The notes beneath the pieces were generated by a model. It was not told the origin of the DNA, did not search any database, and worked only from the letters and a program-made list of their open reading frames with translations. The position numbers were made by a program, and so were the translations under genes. From Vanrija pseudolonga (Eukaryota; Basidiomycota; Tremellomycetes; Trichosporonales; Trichosporonaceae): DNA of 64,000 nt. This document shows positions 20,710 through 57,521 of the stretch, in pieces; position 1 is the first letter of the stretch; each line of letters begins with the position of its first letter. The stretch spans positions 2,046,001 to 2,110,000 of the forward strand of contig NC_085855.1 of the NCBI RefSeq assembly GCF_020906515.1. The letters are read 5' to 3'.

Positions 20710-23700
20710 TTAAACCCACATGAGCAAATGGTGGCGCGTGTAGTCTTGTCCAGACGCCAGGTCAGCAGCCGACCCCAATGCAGGGTAGAATGGCACCATG
20801 GCGTCAACCGCGCCCAAGACGAGCGTGTTGTACATTCGCCAGTAGACCTCACGGATTCGTCGCGCTGGGTGGAACAAGCCCTGCAAGACATAACTCAACA
20901 CGACACCAGGTCCGATACCGATGCGCATAGCCTCGATAGCGTCCATGACACCGCCAATGACGTGTGGACTTGTCTCCAAGATGTTGGGCCACACGAGGTT
21001 GAGCAGGTGCGTCAACGCCTCCTCGTAGCCCAGGCCGGCAACACCAATCGTCAGGTGCTTGACAATCGCACATGCGGTTTGTCGGTGGACGTGGTCACGG
21101 TCGGTGAGCGAGTCCTCGAGCAGACCGACAACCGAGTGGATGTAGTCTTTCGACATTTCTCCAACGTACTCGAACACGTACGCCAATGCCTTGAGACAAC
21201 CGTTGCGGACATTGAGCTCCGGCGTGCGGTACTCGTTGAGAATGGCGGGGATACACGTGAAAGGACCACAGGTCTCGGCGACAATGGCAATGGCGACAGT
21301 CGACAAGACACGGCTTTGACGCTCCTGCACCTTGAGGTTGGTGAGGAGAACACTCAGCACGTCCTGGGGACCAATGGCCTTGGCAATGTAGCCAAACGAG
21401 TTGACGGCCGCACGACGAATAGCCTTCTTGTGCGCCTTGAGCAGGTCGAGCAGCTCAAAACAGATACGCATCCACTCCTTGGCGGCGACAAACTCGGCAC
21501 CACGGTCGGCTGCGAGGGTTAGCACTGTCCACAACGTTCTCATAGTACTCACCAATACGACCAATCAAGTTGATGGTCGCCTCTTGCACCTTTTCGTGTC
21601 GGTTACGCAGAATTGGCGTCATGCGCGGAAGCAGGTCCTTGACGGGCGGGTTCATTTGGGTCATGCCGACAACGTTGGCGATGGCAGCCTCGGCGGCGAT
21701 GATACTTCCAAGAGCATCGGGGTACTCTTCACCGAGCTGCTCGAACAGCACAACACCGAGCTTGCTGAGCAGCGCGTCCTCGTCGTTTTGCTTGATAATC
21801 GGGGCGAGTTTTGTTGTCAGGTCGGCAGCGAGCATACGGACCTTGGCAGACTTGTTTGTCAAGCGCCACAGAATCATCGACACAATCTGCGGGAGGTAGG
21901 GCTTGACGCGCGAGCCAAGCGCGGCGACAACAGCGCCAAAGCCATCCAGCATGACATTGTCCTCGAGGGTCTGCTCCTGGAACGCGAAGATGATGCCGTC
22001 GATAAGCTGGACCTCGAGTCGCTCGTCGATATCCGCAGCGCCATTGTTCTGGACCACCTTTGTGATCGTCTCCATGACCATCTTGCGGTATGGTTCGCTC
22101 TCGTCCTTGAGGTCGTTGGAGATGCGGCCGACAATGTCAGAGACACCGGCCTTGCTGGCGAGCTCGACAGTCGTCTCGACCAGCTGCTTGTAGTTGCGGC
22201 GGTCGAGGGCCATGCGGCGGACCCAGAATGCCTTGAAGAACTCTGGGAGAATGTCCTGGCGGACGAATGTCGGCGTGACACCCTCAGTGCCAGCACACTG
22301 CTTGATGACCTGCAGCACGATGCGGCGCATCTCCTCGTCCGACGTCTGGAACTCGCGGATGAGAATGGGCATACACTCGCGCACGTAGTAACCCGCGTAC
22401 TCGGGGTCCATGAGCGGGACAATGTATCCGATCGCCTTGAGGAAGGCGGCGAGCGTCTTGCCACGGTGCTGGCGCAGGCCGATCCAAAGCGGCTTGAGGA
22501 CATTGTCAAACGACTCGATACCGTAAGGCGCGGCAGCCTCAGCAAGAGCCGCAAGCGCAAGCGCAGTCATTGTGCGGACCTTTTGCTGGTCGTCCTGCAG
22601 GCCATCGGCGACGGCGTCGACGAGGTTGCGCAGGTGGGGGAGCACCGCACAGCCCATCATGACGGCAATCTGCTGGATGATACGAATACCGGTGTGGCGA
22701 GCCTGCCAGCTCTTCTTGGAGCGACACACGGCCTTGAGGAAGGGCAGAAGGGCGGGAATGCCGAGCGCCGAAGCGACAACCGCGAACGCACGGGCAGTCG
22801 TGTTGCGCACATACTCGTCCACGTGGTCGATATCAGGACGCATGGTCGAGATCATGTGGGCGAGACCGGCAGCCTTGGCGAGGTTGCTGATAATCTCGCG
22901 ACCCTCGACACGCGCATAGTAGTCCTCGTCAATAAGCAGGGGCTCAATGACCACAAGAATCTTGTGGACGTAGGGGCGAACAAGATCGTCGAGCTTGTAG
23001 AGCACACGGTCAATGACCTTGACGAGCAAGTGCCGTTCCTGGTCCTCGAGCGTGCGCTCCATCAACAGCGGGAGGATCTTGTCGAACAATGGGCCGGCGC
23101 CAAACTCGCGTGCCTTGTCGGTGATCTGTCGCAGCGCAGTCTTTCGCACGGGTGGAGTACCGTTCTTGATCTTGAGCAGCAGACGCATAATCTTGCGCTC
23201 CTTGAGCTCGTCGAGCGAGTACATGACGTCGTCGGCCTCGCCACCACCCTCACCGAGCACCTTGGCGAAGTACTGGGCGTCCTCGGGCTTGAGGAACTGG
23301 AGGGTTCCGATGCCGTCGATCTCCGTCTGCTCGCCAGCGCCCTGGAATCCACCAGCAGCAGCGACAGCTCGTGCCGCGGCGTTCTCGTCCTGCATCATGA
23401 ACCCGCTGCTCTCAGCATGCTGCGATGACGCCGAGACCATCTTGCGGACGGGTGCGCTGGGGACATAGTCCTCGGGGACCGGCACAATCGAGTAACCCTC
23501 CGCGGAACCAGGAAGCAGCGAGTTGAGCTCGTCGTCGGTGATAGCTCTGTATCGCCTGTCCTCGACCATGGCCTGGGAGGGCTTGGCATCGCCATTACTT
23601 GACGACGACGCAACAGCCGAGCTCGACTCCTCGACGTCGGGCTTCTGGTCCCAGCGCGACCGCTTCGGCGCAGCCTCGGCAACCTCGCCCTTGTCCTCTG

Positions 23701-28801: not shown

Positions 28802-30802
<2,001 letters not shown>

Positions 30803-38726: not shown

Positions 38727-39277
38727 ATGAGCTCTTGTAAGATTAAAGCACGCGTATGAGCTGACCCCAGACCTCCCCCCTGTGCCCGCTACCGGCGGCG
38801 TCCTGCCCTACTGGCTGCTCATCACGTCGGTCGCGTCGGCGTACAACGTGGTCCAGAACTACTTTACCCTCAAGCAGAGCAAGGAGGTGTACGGCGGCAA
38901 GCCGGAGCTGAGTGGGTCCAGAAACCCAGTGCATAGCTGACTCCAGTGAACCCCCTTGCTGGACGCCTCTTCTCCGCATGGACCGCCATGGCCGCCGCGG
39001 TGCGCTTCCTCGCCGCATACGACATCAGCAACAAGGGGTGAGTTGGTCCGCGGGCCGTGCTGACCTCTAGCCTGTACGACCTCGCCATTGTCGCGTTCGG
39101 CGTCGCCACGTTTCACTTCACCACCGAGCTCCTCGTCTTTGGCACGGTCAAGATCAACCGCGCCAGCATCGGCCCGCTCGTCATTGGCTGTGAGTCCTGC
39201 AGAGGAGCGACGCTGACACGGCAGCCAGCGGAGTCGCATGGATGCTCACTCAGCGCTCGTACTACCTCGGCCTGTAA
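38727..39277 (+). CDS. ERG28: Ergosterol biosynthesis scaffold Erg28
   Basis: Five exons (38727-38736, 38771-38911, 38947-39037, 39071-39189, 39225-39277) give 137 residues. It starts MSSYLPPVPATGGVLPYWLL and has the conserved QSKEVYGGKPELMNPLAGRL, WTAMAAAVRFLAAYDISNKG and FHFTTELLVFGTVKI blocks. Erg28 is a four-helix ER membrane protein that tethers the C-4 demethylation enzymes Erg25, Erg26 and Erg27. It is convergent with the enoyl-CoA isomerase gene, 63 bp between stops. Confidence 0.95.
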
Positions 39278-39340
39278 ACCCGATGCACATCATTGCTTGA
39301 ACACTTTCGACGTACAGCACATAAAACTACGGATACAGGT

Positions 39341-40264
39341 CTACAACTTGGCGAGCTTGGCGGCAGTCAGCTTCTCGAGCTGCTTGCGCTTCTCAAAGCC
39401 GATTGCGGCGTGCGCTGGCATGAGAACCTTGCGGTTGGAGCGCGACTGGTCAATGAAGCCGTGGTACAGGCCCTCCTTGATGGCGCCCCACGAGCCCGAG
39501 CCGATGGTCGCGCTGGCCTTGAGGCCGAGTTCGACGGCACGCTTGAGCACGGCGCCCTCCTTGCCCGGGCCCTGGTCGTCGACAATCTCGTCGAGGATGC
39601 CCTCCTTGAGGAGCTCGGGCTGGGTCCAGCGCTTGCCGAGCATAGTGTCACGGGCGTTGCGGGGGGTGAGGCGCGACGAGATGATCTCGTTGAACGAGTT
39701 GGGGAGAGGGAGGCCGATGAGGATCTCGTTCATCGACACCATGCCCTTGCCCGAGGTCATGATGCGGAAGTCGCAGCTGAGGGCGAGGACCATGCCGCCG
39801 GCGAAGGCTACGACGTCAGCTACAGTAGCCGCCACACTCGGCGTCTACTCACCGTGACCGTTGATCGCGGCGACAGTGACGAGGGGGAAGGTCATGAGGC
39901 GGTACATGGTCGGGTCATAGTCGGCTGCAGTTATGTCAGCTAGCTGCGCCAAGCCTATCGGCACTCTCCACTCACACTCGAAAAAGTTGGGGTCGGACAG
40001 GCAGGCGGGGTCGAGGCCGTTGCTGAAGAACTTGGGCAATGACGACGTGATGACGAGGGTACCAGCGCCCTGGTACTTGCCGCGGGCCTTGGGGTCGGGG
40101 TTTCCAGCGCCCGTCGCGCGCCACTCTGCCTCGACAATGTCGAGGTTTGCCTTGAGCTCGTGGAGCAGCTCGGGGGTGAGGCGGTTGTCGGGGGCCGAGT
40201 GGAGCGAGATGACCCACGCGACGGGGTGAGGGCGGGAGAGGGTCATGAGAGGGGTGGCCGACAT
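39341..40264 (-). CDS. Peroxisomal enoyl-CoA hydratase/isomerase family protein
   Basis: Three exons (39976-40264, 39853-39924, 39341-39807) give 275 residues. The crotonase fold motifs are present: oxyanion-hole region INGHAFAGGMVLALSCDFRI and the isomerase-type MNEILIGLPLPNSF, similar to plant and fungal delta3,delta2-enoyl-CoA isomerases, where the Glu acts as base. The protein ends AKL, a type 1 peroxisomal targeting signal, so it should act in beta-oxidation of unsaturated fatty acids. Hydratase activity cannot be excluded from sequence. Confidence 0.88.
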
Positions 40265-50227: not shown

Positions 50228-50233
50228 TATAAA
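50228..50233 (+). promoter_or_regulatory. TATA box candidate for the peptide precursor gene
   Basis: TATAAA 175 bp upstream of the precursor ATG, followed by a C/T-rich leader up to the start codon. Position and leader type fit a strongly expressed fungal gene. No transcript data were available. Confidence 0.5.
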
Positions 50234-50407
50234 GCTCCTGCTGGTACCGGCCTTGTCGATCCCCATCTTCCCCGACCTAGATCCCCCATACGCGACGATT
50301 CACCTCTGGTCAATCAGCTTCACCTCTTGGTCAACCAACAACTACTCTACCCCTACCCTACCCCTACCCCTCCTCAACCTTAACTCGAACAACTTCACCA
50401 ACCTACA

Positions 50408-51511
50408 ATGAAGACCGCCGCTCTCCTTGTCGCCCTCGCCGCCTCTGTCGCTGTCGCTGCCCCTGTTGCCGACGCTGAGGCCCAGGGTGGTTTCTTCGGT
50501 GGTGGTGGCTCCGCTGGCGGCGCTGCCCGTTGGAAGCGCGACGCTGAGGCCGACCCCCAGGGTGGCTTCTTCGGCGGTGGTGGCTCGGCCGGTGGTGCCG
50601 CTCGCTGGAAGAAGGACGCTGAGCCCGAGGCTCAGGGTGGCTTCTTCGGCGGTGGTGGCTCGGCTGGCGGCGCTGCTCGCTGGAAGAAGGACGCTGAGCC
50701 CGAGGCCCAGGGTGGCTTCTTCGGTGGTGGTGGCTCTGCCGGTGGTGCCGCTCGCTGGAAGAAGGACGCTGAGCCCGAGGCTCAGGGCGGTTTCTTCGGC
50801 GGTGGTGGTTCGGCCGGCGGCGCTGCTCGCTGGAAGCGCGACGCCGACGCCGAGCCTGAGGCCCAGGGTGGCTTCTTCGGCGGCGGCGGCTCTGCTGGCG
50901 GTGCTGCCCGCTGGAAGCGCGACGCTGAGGCTGAGCCCGAGGCCCAGGGCGGCTTCTTCGGCGGTGGTGGTTCGGCTGGCGGCGCTGCCCGCTGGAAGCG
51001 CGACGCCGACGCTGAGCCCGAGGCCCAGGGCGGTTTCTTCGGCGGTGGTGGTTCGGCCGGCGGCGCTGCTCGCTGGAAGCGCGACGCCGACGCCGAGCCT
51101 GAGGCCCAGGGTGGCTTCTTCGGCGGTGGTGGCTCCGCTGGCGGCGCTGCCCACTGGAAGAAGGACGCCGAGCCCGAGGCCCAGGGTGGCTTCTTCGGCG
51201 GCGGCGGCTCCGCCGGTGGTGCTGCTCGCTGGAAGCGCGAGGCCGACGCCGAGCCCGAGGCCCAGGGCGGTTTCTTCGGCGGCGGTGGCTCCGCTGGTGG
51301 TGCCGCTCGCTGGAAGAAGGACGCCGAGCCTGAGGCGCAGGGTGGCTTCTTCGGTGGTGGCGGCTCCGCCGGCGGCGCTGCCCGCTGGAAGAAGGACGCC
51401 GAGCCCGAGGCCCAGGGTGGCTTCTTCGGCGGTGGTGGCTCCGCTGGTGGCGCCGCTCGCTGGAAGAAGGACGCCGAGCCCGCCGCCGAGGTCGAGGTCG
51501 CTGCCCAGTAA
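50408..51511 (+). CDS. Secreted multi-copy peptide precursor (kexin-processed, alpha-factor-like architecture)
   Basis: Single exon, 367 residues. Residues 1-17 or so form a signal peptide (MKTAALLVALAASVAVAA). Thirteen copies of a 17-residue core, QGGFFGGGGSAGGAARW, follow from residue 26 to 354. Copy 9 differs by one residue (AAHW). Each core is followed by KR (6 copies) or KK (7 copies), the Kex2-type site. Every spacer between the dibasic site and the next Gln consists of Asp/Glu-Ala/Pro dipeptides, 6 or 8 residues long (DAEPEA, DADAEPEA, DAEAEPEA, EADAEPEA, DAEADP), as in yeast alpha-factor precursors trimmed by Ste13. The part after the signal peptide, APVADAEA, fits the same rule. Third codon positions differ between copies while residues do not. 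The tail is DAEPAAEVEVAAQ, without a CAAX box, so it is not a lipopeptide mating pheromone. Mature products and role are inferred. Confidence 0.92.
   Translation: MKTAALLVALAASVAVAAPVADAEAQGGFFGGGGSAGGAARWKRDAEADPQGGFFGGGGSAGGAARWKKDAEPEAQGGFFGGGGSAGGAARWKKDAEPEAQGGFFGGGGSAGGAARWKKDAEPEAQGGFFGGGGSAGGAARWKRDADAEPEAQGGFFGGGGSAGGAARWKRDAEAEPEAQGGFFGGGGSAGGAARWKRDADAEPEAQGGFFGGGGSAGGAARWKRDADAEPEAQGGFFGGGGSAGGAAHWKKDAEPEAQGGFFGGGGSAGGAARWKREADAEPEAQGGFFGGGGSAGGAARWKKDAEPEAQGGFFGGGGSAGGAARWKKDAEPEAQGGFFGGGGSAGGAARWKKDAEPAAEVEVAAQ
50483..51469 (+). repeat. 13 tandem coding repeats (75-81 bp units)
   Basis: In-frame tandem repeats inside the precursor gene. There are two unit types: 27 codons (core, KR, 8-residue spacer) and 25 codons (core, KK, 6-residue spacer). 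By the dibasic site that follows each core, the order is KR (with a 6-residue spacer), KK three times, KR four times, KK, KR, KK three times. The next copy starts with Gln in every case. Confidence 0.95.
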
Positions 51512-53031
51512 AGTGCTAGCCTGCTGCCACGGCGGGTGTGCCTTGGACGTGACTTGTGGTTCATTTTCGGGACCCTTGCGTCAACACGCAATCGACCTGT
51601 GAGTACGTCAACGACCCCTGTTCCATTGCCGTCATCCCATGGCACTAACACCGAAACGCAGTGTCCGGACGCAATTAATTTCTTGAACCCCGCCTACGCG
51701 CCGAGACCTCGAGTGCAAACCTTGTCTTCGAGGTCATCGCAACTTCCGCACTCCCTTCTTTTTCACCTTTAAACGACCCCCGCCTCCCCTTCCGTGTAAC
51801 AACACCTCCCTTCTTCGGCCTGTCGACGACGGCCGACAGCTTGACCTTGGGACGGACCCGACCGACCCAAATCGGCTTTGTTGTGCTTGCTTTTTTGCTT
51901 GTTGCTTCCCCGCCGTCACACTGTCTCTCCGACGTACGACTCGCCACCCTCAAACACGCGGCTTGGTTTCCGGGCAGCGCCTCTTTCCAAAACTCGACCC
52001 AGGCACCGCTCTGCGCGTCGTCGCGTCGCGTGTTACGTGTTCTTCCCCTTTGTAGACTTTTTTTTTTTTTGTTCAGTAGCAGTAGTAGAATTTGACGCGA
52101 ACGCCATGCCAGCAGCGGCCGCGGTCGCCCTGACGATCTCAACGATGAGAGTAGACATGCCTATGCAGGACATTCGTACGTCTTGTGAGTTGGTTGCGGC
52201 GCAGTGCAGCACGGCGCGTCGGTGTCGCGGTGGGTTGAGGGTTGCGGGTCCGGGTGCGTGTTAGCGCTAGCTAGTAGCGGGAGGTGTTACTACGCCATTA
52301 CCGCCACATGGTGCGCCTTGAATGGCCTAGTCTGCGACGGGAGCGTGAGATGTTATGATCAGATCGGGCAGGCATCAATCAGTGGCTCAGTGGCTTAGTA
52401 GGCTGGAAACAATGGACGTGGTGGTGGTGATGATGGTGAGCACGAGATCAATGTTGTTTGTGTGTTTGTGTGTTTGTTGACAGCGTGGCAGCGGGACTGA
52501 CGGGATGTGTGTGTGGAGGTGGCGGGTGCACGGGCCACCACCATGACGTTCATGGCCAGTGCTCCACCTGTTGCGAAACGCATCGACATGTGAGGAAGCG
52601 AGCGAGGGAGGTGTGCAGTCGCCTCGACAGACGACTGTTGCCCCTTGAGTGGCGAGACCTGGTCGCCATGTACTTACTTGCATGTACGGTACGTACGTAC
52701 ACACGCGACAGTCTTGGCGCAAGGCACAGACAGACCCCGACGCGACGCGTCACGCTGTTTGCTGCACGACCAGACCAGTCGCCGGGTTGGCTCCACTCAA
52801 TGGGACTGGAGGTCCAAGCCATCGTCGTCATAAGCAAGTCGTCGCGCCGCACAACTCGACAATGCCATGCCTACCTACTCAATGTTAATCAGGACCTCAG
52901 ACCAGCCCGGCCCGGCCGCCTCTGACATATGCGCCGCACGGACCGGAGCGGCCCTCGCCTCGTCTGAAACAAACATCTCACACACGGCTGTTTGGCTTCC
53001 GCCAAGGGCGCTACGGTAGTTGGTGGAACCC

Positions 53032-53157
53032 CAACCGCCGGCCTGTCTGAGACAAAGACGATGTTTAAGACGGCCTAACAGCCGGGGATCTAGGATTCGG
53101 CTGTTGGCGCCCTCGAGGAACGCTTACACGGCGTGTCTTAGACAGGCTAGGAGGTTG
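53032..53157. repeat. Imperfect inverted repeat, 126 bp
   Basis: Outer arms 53032-53054 and 53134-53157 match in inverse orientation at about 20 of 24 positions (GCCTGTCTGAGACA against the complement of TGTCTTAGACAGGC differs at one base). A perfect inner pair, AACAGCCG at 53077-53084 and CGGCTGTT at 53098-53105, is nearly concentric. It could be a small foldback element, a structured RNA or a transcription end signal. Confidence 0.65.
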
Positions 53158-53237
53158 CGTCATGCCGGACAAGGCCTGGCGGCACCGGCGAGGGGGCTGC
53201 AGATAGATGGGAACGGCTGGACGAGGACGGCATGCCC

Positions 53238-53390
53238 GTCGCCCATCAAGGAGCCGACTACACCTCGGACTGGACGGCCTCATCCACATCCGCGGCGCCG
53301 CGCAGCTCGGCCTGTTGCCAGTGTTGCGCTGGGATCGTCGAGGCGGTGCATGCGGCGTGACGGGGACGGCGACAACGTCGCCCATCAAGG
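53238..53390. repeat. Direct repeat pair, 14 bp perfect
   Basis: GTCGCCCATCAAGG occurs at 53238-53251 and 53377-53390. The 15 bases upstream of each copy are also partly alike (GGACGGC in both), so about 30 bp is duplicated 139 bp apart. Confidence 0.7.
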
Positions 53391-53644
53391 CGTCTTAGGC
53401 ATGTCGCACAGCCGTCAGCAATCGTTGACCTCGGCCCCACCCCTGTACACTCCCCGCTTGCTTCGCTGAACCAACTGACAGCGCCAAGGACCTACATAAC
53501 ATGACACATTGAAATCCTACTACCCTTACAATCTGCCATTATGCGCAACCACGACTGCCCTCACTCCCCCACACCCTAATAACCTGCTCAAGATGAAAAA
53601 GAAAAAAGAAAAGAAAATACGCGTTACACCTGGTTAGACGTTCC

Positions 53645-56600
53645 CTACGGCCTTGTCAGCGCCCAGACGAGGGAGGAGACGCGGATTCGCTCACATGTGT
53701 CTGGTCCAAAGGTCGAGTTCGGCGGCAAAATTCTGGATACTGCTCCATAATAGTCCCCGGCTGATATGGTCAGCACAAAGATTATGAGGCTGCACTTACT
53801 CCTCCTGTACACGTTGTTGCCCCACCAGTTGAGGGTTGCACCAGGTAAACGCAAAACAAGGAAGATGAAGACCGCGCAGGTGAGCGTCCCGACATCCAGG
53901 CCTGCGCCGAGGACATAGTTGTACTGGGGGTTTAGCAATAGTCGATGACGTTCAACGCACCTTGGCCCACCACGCAAAGTAGTAGCGTCGGACCCAGTAC
54001 TGGAAAACAAAGCCAAGCACCAGGAACATGGCGACGTTGACTCCAGTTGCCGGTGGAATGGCGAGGCAGACGCTGAAGACCAGGGTGATGTTGAGGTTTC
54101 TCAGGATGGAGCGGGGGTACTTGCGACACCAAAGCCAAAGCGGGATCGGCAGGACCGCTCCAACCAACATCATCCACAGCTGCGGCCGATAAATGCCACC
54201 CTTGTCGAACAGTCGATTAGGTCCGATTAGACCCCAGATCACTGATGCCGTGAACGTCGTCTGCGAGTTGGCGCAGGTGAGGAGGTACTTGTTGTGCTGG
54301 GTGCAGATATCGGGGATGTTGGTGAACATCAACCACTTTACGCCGACCTGCGCAAAGGAGGCAATACTGCACGCCGTCATCTGAGCGATGAACATGGACC
54401 GTGGCGGGATCTTCATGTAGTGTCCCAGCTTCATGTCTCTTGCAAAGTACATGGCCTCAGCGAGTGTCTGGACGGCAAAGGTTTTGAAGATCTTGGTGGT
54501 CAGCAGGCAACCCATGTGCGGATACACTTACCATTCCAGGAATGGGCTGGCCCTTGAAGGCGTAACCCGGGATGAGCTCTGCGATGAGGTTGAACGTCGG
54601 CTCCATGTTCGTCATGGCGAAAATAATGCCGATCGGGACGATGTAGACTGCCGCCATCGCAATCGCAACGGCATAGCCCCATACGGGAAGTCCAGTGGCG
54701 AAGACTTCGATTGTTACGATGCCCAAAACCACGCAGCCAAGGAATGCAATAATGTACCACCAGTCGGGAACCTCGGGGTAGCGGCGCATCAACTTCATGT
54801 GAATGTCGTCCGGCTCGGTCTTTCGGTTCCGAGAGGTCAAGTAGATTCGCTTGCCGTGGTAGAGAACCGTGTAGACGATGAGCGAGGTTGTGAGACCAAA
54901 GGCCAACATGTACGTCACGGTGAACGCGGCCGTTAAGTAGACCGGCGAGTACTCGGCGTACGCAGTCGTGTTGAGCTTGAAGTCTGGCGTCAGGATCCTG
55001 CCAATGTCGTAAGGTTGTTGGTAACGGTCCCCAGGTGCAATGGTCAAGATGGGAAGGTACGCAGTGTACCACACCTGACGGTCAGCGTCACTCGGTCTCC
55101 AGGCCTTACATTGTTGTAGTAGAGCAACGGTGTGAGGAGCCAGTAGAACAGCAGGAAGCCCAGGGCAATGTTGACCTGGGCCCACCATGGAGCAGTCAGA
55201 GGATTCCCCACCCACGCAATCTGGGCCCAGTCGAAGGTGAGAATGCCCATGCCGAGGCCGGTAGTCACGCCGAAGAGCTGGTTCACGGTGGCGTTGTTCG
55301 GTTTGATCCAGCAGAGCCAGGAGAAGTATGACAACCCCGTGAAGAGGAACCCTGGGGCGTCAGTCGCAGTCATACTGAGTTACTCACCTGGGACAAAGTA
55401 CCAGAAGAACGCAACAACCGAAACCAAGATGAAGAACTTTAGACGCGTAATCTTGGCTCCAACAGCGCCATCACTCTCAGCGTGAAGAATGTTGAGCGTC
55501 GTGGTTGTGACCAGGCAGCCTGGCCACAGCATTGAGGCCGGGAAGACAACGAATCGTCGAACGATGCCAGCCATCGACAATCCAGTCAACTGGCTGGACA
55601 GGATGTACATGATGGTGAAGCCGTAGGTGAAGTTTCGCTTGTACCACTGGTTGGCGGCCACAACACTGTGGAGACCGTATGCGGGGATGATCGAGACGTT
55701 GGCCATCATGACAATGATCGTGTGCTCCTTGATGTTGAATGGGCAGGGGTTGAAGCTGAAGTCACCGCCGCCGAGCCAACGTGGAAGCTTCCAAGTGCGG
55801 AAAGGAAGCGCCCAACCGAAAAACTTGCCGATGGGATAAGCGGCAACCTGGACGACGATGGCGGGGAGTGATGGTGAGGGAGTACGGAAGGTGAAGAAGG
55901 TGTTGATAGCACCTGTCACACATGAGAGCAAGATACCGATGAAGATTGAGCGGAAGGTCAAGGTCGCCATGTGCGGGTCGTCAATGTTGGAGACCGAGGC
56001 TCGCACTTCTGCGTAAGGGCTGTCTTCGTCCCAGTCGATGTCGTCGCCCTCTTCACTCTTGAGGACACCACCCAAACCATCGCCCCAGGTCGTCCTGCCA
56101 TCCGGAACTGTCTGGTCGCCGCTGAGCTCGGTCATGTTGCCGCGGGTGGACGGGCGAAGATCGTCGGTGACGACTGACGACCGAGCACGGAAACGGCCAG
56201 AATGGTGATCAGTGTCGAAGTCATCAAGATCGCTGCCGTTTGTGACGACAGATGTCGCGTCTGTACGGCCCGTCGCAGGTGGAGTGCGATGGTTGGCGGT
56301 CGTTGGCCGCCTGACCGGCGTCGTGAGCGTGCGCATGGCAGTAGACGTTCCATGGTCCGACCCAAACGCTTCGCGACGTTGACGAATGGAGGCCCAGAAA
56401 ACCCCATTGTTCAGGTTGTCGCGCCCACTCAAAGGCGGGGGGTGGGCGGTGTCGAACTCGAATGGGTGATCAGAAACAAGGTTTCCCGGTGGTAATGAGA
56501 AGTCGACCTTGTCTGAGTCGGCGTCGTGCGCGGGATTGGCAGTTGTGGGCCTGTGGAATGCAAAGACGTTGTCATCGTCGTCCTCGTTATCATCGTCGTG

Positions 56601-57521
56601 ACCCTCATCCGACGCTGCCTGGGAGAAGAACTGCTGAGTCGGGGTGTCGCCGGCAGACAAGGTGGACTCGAGGGTATCAGGCCTAAACTGTGTCGCCGGA
56701 TCCCAGGCAACAGAACGGCGGGGTACTGGCGCTGCCGCGGGCTGAGGGCTGCTTTCCTTTGGAGGTGCACTAAAGTCGGGCACACTTGGCGTGTGCGGGT
56801 CTGCCGAATCTCCATGGGAGATCTGAGTCTCGAGGTGTGGCATTGGCTCAATGTCCAGTGGCACTGGACGGTTGGCCGGTGTTGCTGGGGTGAACTGAAT
56901 TGTCGCTGGAGCGAAGTACGGAGGGGGACTTGACGAGGGCAGGGCATCATCCTTCTCTGATAATGTAGGATGTTGCGGCTGCTCTGGTTGCTGTGGCTCT
57001 GGTTGCTGTGCAGCAGCTGACCCGAATGAGAATGCAAATGGGGAGGAGGTTTGGGCGTGGCGTTCAGAGGATTGCGGTTGCTCAACGGATTGCGGCAGCT
57101 CAGAGGATTGCGGTATCCTTTCCGCCACGGGGACATCAACTGCCCGCTGTGACAGGTCATGGGTGGCCTCTGTTGGAGTGGTGACGACGAAAGAGGTAGA
57201 GGCGAGCCCCGAGCTGGTAGGTATCCTGCCAGCTGCGTCGTCGGTGACAATAGATACTGGTCTGGGTCGTGAGAAATCGATAGAGGTGCGAGCGCTCGCA
57301 GGGTGTTCGTGCTGATGGTTGCCCAGGACGGTCGACGCGCGGGACGGCGGATCTGACGGCCCGGCATGAGCTGTTGCAAAGGTCCCTATTGTTGTCGCCA
57401 CGCTACCCGCCGCGCTCGCTGGGCGCGCGATACCACCCTCACGAAGATGCTCCTCGACCTCGACGGCCTGACCGACTACTGGGGGTCGGGCAGATTCATC
57501 ATCGGGTCGTGGTGTCGACAT
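53645..57521 (-). CDS. Oligopeptide transporter (OPT family) with long disordered N-terminus
   Basis: Several exons; the first (to about 55388) starts at ATG 57521-57519. About 500 residues rich in Ser, Pro, Gln, Asp and Glu precede the family core, which begins with SPYAEVRASVSNIDDPHMAT. OPT motifs follow: FNPCPFNIKEH near residue 593 (the usual family motif is NPGPF; here Gly is Cys), TTGLGMGILTFDWAQIAWVG, GQPIPGM, RDMKLGHYMKIPPRSMF, and a C-terminal LPGATLNWWGNNVYRR. Total length is about 1200 residues against 700-900 for most fungal OPT proteins. OPT proteins import small peptides with protons across the plasma membrane; Opt1 of Cryptococcus neoformans imports the signalling peptide Qsp1. 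It is tail-to-tail with the peptide precursor gene, 2.1 kb apart. Substrate here is unknown. Confidence 0.93.

Follow-up and report, generated by a model that had tools for sequence, protein, structure and literature searches.

A peptide precursor and its neighbor

The window analyzed here, 64,000 nucleotides of a Vanrija pseudolonga contig (NC_085855.1, positions 2,046,001 to 2,110,000), contains a gene for a repeat precursor that carries 13 copies of a 17-residue core and, convergent with it, a gene for an oligopeptide transporter (OPT) (Table 1). The host is a basidiomycete of the Trichosporonaceae (Trichosporonales, Tremellomycetes), in line with an earlier note on this DNA, which had described an alpha-factor-style precursor in such a fungus.

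The N-terminus of the precursor is hydrophobic and signal-like by a hydropathy rule. Twelve of the 13 cores are identical (copy 9 has His in place of Arg, AAHW for AARW), and each is followed by a dibasic site, KR in six cases and KK in seven. Tandem Repeats Finder describes the array as 13.0 copies of a 75-base period (score 1189). The 12 inter-core spacers are six (7/12) or eight (5/12) residues long and consist throughout of [DE][AP] dipeptides (41/41); shuffling the residues pooled from the spacers 20,000 times never placed Ala or Pro at every second position. The eight residues that precede core 1 (AP-VA-DA-EA) keep the same dipeptide phase. Spacer length tracks the cleavage site, with eight-residue spacers at five of the six KR sites and six-residue spacers at all six internal KK sites, giving repeat units of mainly two sizes, 75 and 81 bases. 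The signal peptide, copy number, dibasic sites and acidic-Ala/Pro spacers read by the earlier note all hold, as does the Gln that begins its predicted 17-mer, QGGFFGGGGSAGGAARW.

A signal peptide, repeats parted by KEX2 sites and a STE13 dipeptide signature are the hallmarks of one group of kexin-processed repeat proteins (KEPs), and all are found here. The C-terminus (EVEVAAQ) forms no CAAX box and has no Cys, and the N-terminus is signal-like, so that setting aside a farnesylated CAAX pheromone, as the earlier note did, is reasonable. A Pfam scan of the precursor at E values up to 10 returned no match. Judged from its sequence, the window gene is a genuine precursor for a secreted peptide in multiple copies, well preserved and of a known architectural kind: Basidiomycota KEPs with STE13 signatures, alpha-pheromone-like in layout, have been reported, including QSWGGCGGRGTPCW from Trichosporon oleaginosus (PMC6339444). 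The alpha-factor comparison is thus a reasonable description of the layout, and the architecture itself is not new.

Pairwise comparison of the core copies counts 453 synonymous and 13 non-synonymous nucleotide changes, and all 13 stem from the His codon in copy 9, the sole amino-acid difference. The synonymous differences amount to 94% of those expected if codons were drawn independently from the ones used in the cores (480 ± 22). With synonymous change near expectation and non-synonymous change so scarce, the peptide is held fixed while its DNA varies among preferred codons. Codon choice is strict (no Gly codon ending in A or G in 104; Lys AAG 21/21; Phe TTC 26/26; Glu GAG 29/29) and more relaxed in the neighboring OPT gene. 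Such a bias would be expected of a highly expressed gene whose peptide is strictly kept.

Searching a protein database with the precursor, in which scores were computed for the 8000 candidates with the most words in common, revealed no ortholog of the core; this absence is weak evidence because words of low complexity may swamp the initial screen. The single match at E 0.001 was distant, P0001 from a JGI metagenome. P0001 is itself a Tyr/Gly-rich repeat precursor of 280 residues with IWKR sites and DAEA-like spacers. The precursor's own record was not among the database matches, and the gene may therefore be missing from public annotation.

The adjacent transporter is the Opt1 counterpart

The OPT gene is the next gene found 3′ of the precursor, 2.1 kb from its stop. 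Coding-segment scoring trained on the OPT gene missed the precursor itself, so that the gap (51512-53633) may still hold a small gene; a scan for signal-like open reading frames (ORFs) gave one of 62 residues wholly inside the gap (52395-52583, minus strand), which we take as chance. The spliced OPT protein agrees with the public V. pseudolonga record P0002 (100% over 1216 residues), and its two main exon pieces best match the ISP4 small-oligopeptide type (TIGR00727), each scoring below the whole-protein cut-off.

Among the best 120 of 1849 database matches to this protein, the nearest relatives are 21 Tremellomycetes proteins (P0003-P0023), one per species, with 52-65% identity. P0016, the sole C. 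neoformans entry among those 120, is 58% identical. Changes in C. neoformans Opt1 (CNAG_03013) have been reported at P358, M484 and W932 (PMC8092252), and P0016 has all three residues at those positions, from which we identify it as Opt1. When P0016 was searched back against the V. pseudolonga genome (53 matches, 44 of 64 candidates scored), the window locus came out best, with four of five pieces at 54-56% identity and the fifth, N-terminal and weak, at 39%; at the other OPT loci, long pieces reached 26-39% and short ones up to 44%. We count about 21 OPT loci in the genome, from 71 matches. At one place, C4:2911606-2921558, the matches resemble three transporter genes in a row.

In a tree of 31 proteins selected from the 120 listed matches, the window protein joins Trichosporonales, Cryptococcus and Kwoniella proteins in an 18-member clade whose support (93/98) falls slightly short of the strict mark, and Naganishia and Phaffia lie outside. 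As V. pseudolonga's own OPT paralogs were left out of the tree, orthology with Opt1 is drawn from the back-search and the tree jointly. The window protein and P0016 also have in common an N-terminal motif, MTELxGDxTVPDGxTTWGDG, and the C-terminus FGPDTW. The motif upstream of the membrane domain (MTELSGDQTVPDGRTTWGDG in the window protein) occurs, by the pattern applied, in 12 of the 18 clade members, Opt1 included, and in none of the 13 others. On these sequence comparisons the window OPT gene is the counterpart of OPT1.

In C. neoformans, Opt1 serves a peptide encoded next door. Qsp1 is a secreted peptide, NFGAPGGAYPW (PMC5959073, PMC5959062), which depends on Opt1 and works intracellularly (PMC7537855; also PMC5959062). 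Its gene, QSP1 or CQS1, is CNAG_03012 (PMC6687208, PMC8561399). Constructs have been inserted in the CNAG_03012-CNAG_03013 intergenic region (PMC2848560, PMC8187385) and one inversion affects both genes (PMC3618354), from which we deduce that the two are adjacent. The arrangement of a peptide gene adjoining OPT1 thus recurs in V. pseudolonga. By a hand calculation, one of the four KEP loci (the C1 cluster, C2, C3 and the window) would by chance land within 2.1 kb of this single OPT gene with a probability of about 0.15% (four times 9.2 kb out of 24,868 kb). Qsp1 had been considered before the neighbor was seen; the linkage hypothesis was formed only afterwards.

Processing machinery in the genome

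The genome holds one kexin match (P_proprotein), one match of the Ste13 type (DPPIV_N) and 14 matches to S10 carboxypeptidases, grouped into five loci. No glutaminyl cyclase of family PF05096, the cyclase family searched, was found in the genome, in a search that detected 3 of 14 controls; any cyclization of the N-terminal Gln may then be spontaneous or due to another enzyme. The earlier suggestion of a pyroglutamate form is reasonable; mass spectrometry detected Trp-ended peptides with pyro-Gln from a Coprinopsis KEP expressed in Pichia (PMC9769878).

Sister precursors

The anatomy given in the earlier note stands; the Opt1 counterpart and five sister precursors had been overlooked. In the genome, the pattern W-K-x-[DE]-A matched at 60 places and its reverse at 20. 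The 60 comprise 13 in the window gene, seven in a cluster on contig C1, four at a locus on C2 and 36 alone. Among the lone places, the 30 scanned by script held no Trp-ended repeat precursor. The C1 and C2 places correspond to five further Trp-ended precursors, of which four (a-d) lie within 4.5 kb of each other (Table 1). Trp precedes the dibasic site in all 19 sister cores, a feature that the search pattern itself required. The dipeptide layout is imperfect in the sisters, since two b copies follow KR without a spacer and the d spacers (for example DADVVD) are not all X-A/P. In the 400 bases upstream that were examined, a TATA-like element like that of the window gene occurs at precursor e (115 bases) and at none of a-d.

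Compared over its first 25 residues, the window precursor resembles a, b and d (0/1000 shuffles each), c (p 0.006) and, weakly, e (p 0.019). These shared N-termini provide modest evidence of common descent, as signal peptides share a composition whose order shuffling destroys. Pfam scans of the sisters at E values up to 10 gave no match for a and c and matches far below the cut-off for b, d and e; a protein database search with d returned nothing at E 0.001 among 2574 candidates.

KR/KK-type sites followed by [DE]A[DE][AP] occur at 66 places, compared with nine for the reversed pattern; of the places not already known, a pair on C3 was examined. It belongs to a further KEP (C3:1882400-1883500) with two repeats of about 49 residues that end in KR, not Trp-ended and unlike the window type. 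A published survey gives an average of 1.00 KEP per Tremellomycetes strain (PMC7329392); V. pseudolonga has at least seven by the present criteria, which differ from those of the survey.

Table 1. Positions of the precursor and transporter features in the window, and of the sister precursors elsewhere in the genome
Feature	Position	Strand	Remarks
TATA-like element TATAAAGC	50228..50235	+	180 bases 5′ of ATG
Precursor gene	50408..51511	+	367 residues plus stop, single open frame
Predicted signal peptide MKTAALLVALAASVAVA	50408..50458	+	hydropathy rule; cleavage site placed by eye
AP-VA-DA-EA	50459..50482	+	four X-A/P dipeptides, presumed signal cleavage site to core 1
Core 1 QGGFFGGGGSAGGAARW	50483..50533	+	then KR
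Core 2	50558..50608	+	then KK
Core 3	50633..50683	+	then KK
Core 4	50708..50758	+	then KK
Core 5	50783..50833	+	then KR
Core 6	50864..50914	+	then KR
Core 7	50945..50995	+	then KR
Core 8	51026..51076	+	then KR; DNA identical to core 5
Core 9, variant QGGFFGGGGSAGGAAHW	51107..51157	+	then KK
Core 10	51182..51232	+	then KR
Core 11	51263..51313	+	then KK
Core 12	51338..51388	+	then KK
Core 13	51413..51463	+	then KK and short tail DAEPAAEVEVAAQ
OPT1 counterpart	53634..57521	-	7 exons, 1216 residues; N-terminal extension of ~515 residues, then OPT domain
OPT gene introns	55352-55387, 55075-55109, 54492-54531, 53924-53960, 53761-53799, 53645-53694	-	
Four-gene cluster a-d	C1:2449188-2453681	all one strand	candidate locus for diversified peptide signals
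Precursor a	C1 cluster		cores GRWGNEG(N/P)ADW and AGWGNVKGPAHW
Precursor b	C1 cluster		five FIGWGAISGPPKW
Precursor c	C1 cluster		three of type QTWGGGTGGGPGGGWGPPGW
Precursor d	C1 cluster		four (R/G)TFG(K/M)GAP(H/R)W
Precursor e	C2 about 2260.9-2261.3 kb	-	QGQNINGWGINPPYW three times and QNHNGWGTNPPYW once; KK at each of the four sites

Elsewhere in the window we noted two ordinary neighbors on the minus strand, pieces of a HEAT-repeat protein (20785-23401; best matches PPP2R1A-like and TORTIFOLIA1-like) and a subunit of a V/A-type ATPase or ATP synthase (28808-29908). An Erg28-like match (39042-39854, plus) and an enoyl-CoA hydratase-like match (39344-39817, minus) lie close together and are probably two convergent genes.

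A candidate signal-importer pair

We favor, with a probability of roughly 55%, the interpretation that the precursor is the positional counterpart of QSP1 and encodes a secreted signal that is re-imported through the neighboring Opt1 counterpart. We infer the processing, import and signaling function of the 17-mer as follows. The precursor would enter the secretory pathway, where kexin would cut behind each KR or KK, a carboxypeptidase would trim Lys and Arg from the core ends, and a Ste13-type dipeptidyl peptidase would remove the D/E-A/P pairs as far as Gln-Gly. Up to 13 copies of the core, or its pyroglutamate form, would thereby be set free. The peptide would build up outside, re-enter cells via the adjacent OPT transporter and act intracellularly as a density or autoregulatory signal. 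The weight of this interpretation lies in the adjacency to the Opt1 counterpart itself; the side on which the peptide gene stands carries none. For chromosome 3 of C. neoformans, Opt1 changes are tabulated from 211,137 (P358) to 213,165 (W932) and CNAG_02858 at 594,765 (PMC8092252, Table 1). OPT1 therefore reads with rising coordinate and tag numbers fall, which, as deduced from two tags, would place QSP1 3′ of OPT1 as in the window.

Several observations weigh against this interpretation. KK, present here at 7 of the 13 sites, is a weaker kexin site than KR. The five sisters adjoin none of the ~21 OPT loci (the nearest OPT match on the same contig is ~0.9 Mb away for e and ~2 Mb for a-d), and most of the Trp-ended peptide family is thus unlinked to an importer. 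Close relatives of the window OPT protein are found across Basidiomycota, well beyond Tremellomycetes, which suggests that the transporter also has a wider role, and the adjacency of a peptide gene to OPT1 is known in two species, C. neoformans and V. pseudolonga. Similarity between the core and Qsp1 is not significant (permutation p 0.085 for ungapped identities and 0.10 for alignment score), nor is an FG..GA..W motif chosen after looking (p 0.056); the likeness seen by eye (G..GGA..W; FG..GA..W) failed permutation and we do not use it as support. Pro-Qsp1 is matured outside the cell by Pqp1 (PMC7537855), CNAG_03012 is described as short (PMC3618354), and we found no source that describes Qsp1 as a kexin repeat protein. 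Finally, the inversion spans the first ~210 kb of chromosome 3 (PMC3618354); if its break falls between both genes at ~210 kb, QSP1 would lie 5′ of OPT1, which leaves the side unsettled.

The strongest competing explanation, which we nevertheless regard as unlikely, is that the gene encodes a KEP of alpha-factor-like type, with a linear peptide that a G-protein-coupled receptor (GPCR) at the cell surface perceives or that is directed at other organisms, the OPT neighbor being coincidental. STE13-signature KEPs, many with Trp-ended cores, occur in several Basidiomycota, and GPCRs or effector roles have been proposed for them (PMC6339444, PMC9769878); kep knockouts in Coprinopsis cinerea are reported without a detectable phenotype (PMC9769878). 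The sisters' distance from any OPT match fits this explanation as well. A coincidental neighbor is hard to reconcile with its identity, as it is the best match of Qsp1's own importer, beside which QSP1 sits in Cryptococcus. No STE2-type receptor was detected in the genome, a weak negative because all 14 controls were silent.

A glycine-rich repeat protein of the cell wall or surface, processed or not and with a role like that of the Ustilago Rep1 peptides, appears distinctly less probable. The core is indeed very Gly-rich with FF, the codon usage is that of a highly expressed gene, and Rep1 peptides govern hyphal wall properties (PMC6339444). However, the unbroken STE13 dipeptide phase (41/41) would serve no obvious purpose in a structural repeat, and the linkage to the Opt1 counterpart speaks against a wall role too. 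Rep1-type peptides are about 37 residues long, compared with 17-residue cores here, and the STE13 signature found here is absent from Rep1 in the account of PMC6339444.

The Phe and Trp residues of the core would suit a modified cyclic peptide of the dikaritin type, that is, a ribosomally synthesized and post-translationally modified peptide. In dikaritins the cyclization site is a Tyr in the core, and QGGFFGGGGSAGGAARW has no Tyr. Kexin repeat precursors do feed the ustiloxin-type pathway, and Tyr content is treated in the same paper (PMC7329392). Yet the genome gave no UstYa/DUF3328 match (a weak negative, all 14 controls being silent), and Pfam detected no peptide-modification domain among 20 window ORF pieces, many of them unmatched and with exons possibly missed; we consider such a product very improbable. 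Least probable of all is a true alpha-type mating pheromone, for which the alpha-factor architecture speaks, since basidiomycete mating uses a-type pheromones (PMC6339444), STE3 receptor matches lie at a single place on another contig (C1:3633178-3634104, the contig of the a-d cluster and far from it), STE2 went undetected with silent controls and the precursor matches no Pfam family.

A broader scenario can also be proposed, tentatively and with somewhat less than even confidence. OPT1 and an adjacent gene for a secreted, Trp-ended peptide may form a signal-importer pair that predates the split between Trichosporonales and Tremellales, in which the importer stays while the sequence, length and copy number of the signal change rapidly. 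The Vanrija form would then be a 13-copy alpha-factor-style precursor, with the four-gene cluster adding further peptide 'words'. Were this scenario true, some alpha-pheromone-like Basidiomycota KEPs would serve as imported quorum signals rather than as ligands of a surface receptor.

Comparison with known systems

The new element is the place of the precursor beside the Opt1 counterpart. Among the papers searched, none contained both Qsp1 and Kex2, and no title or abstract opening examined linked KEPs to OPT1. An oligopeptide transporter is nowhere named in the main text of PMC9769878, the one KEP paper checked for the term, and the main text of PMC12820176, on Trichosporonales genomes, lacks the words Qsp1, quorum, oligopeptide and KEX2. 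For this one among the alpha-pheromone-like repeat precursors of Basidiomycota, the Opt1 linkage offers a specific, testable claim on function, that of a re-imported signal. The Qsp1 pathway, described in the literature consulted for Cryptococcus alone, may be more widespread among Tremellomycetes yeasts, in which case it could be investigated in species other than those pathogens.

In its signal peptide, dibasic sites and X-A/P dipeptides the precursor resembles the STE13-signature KEPs of Basidiomycota, such as C. cinerea KEP 490115 and those of Pleurotus and Lentinula. The cores of KEP 490115 also begin with Gln and end with Trp (PMC9769878), but by eye the core sequence is unrelated to that of KEP 490115 or of the Pleurotus and Lentinula proteins. 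The KEP of Trichosporon (Cutaneotrichosporon) oleaginosus comes from the same yeast family and shares the architecture, the Gln start and the Trp end; unlike the window core it has a Cys pair, and by eye it is closer to sisters c and e. The kexin, carboxypeptidase and Ste13 layout is also that of ascomycete alpha-factor precursors, from which the window gene differs in lacking a Pfam match and in a genome where no STE2 was detected (controls silent). Like the Qsp1-Opt1 system, the locus combines a Gly/Ala-rich peptide that ends in Trp with a matching OPT transporter gene beside it, perhaps on the same (3′) side; unlike Qsp1, an 11-mer whose short precursor is processed by Pqp1, the V. pseudolonga peptide is a 17-mer present in 13 copies within a kexin/Ste13 layout.

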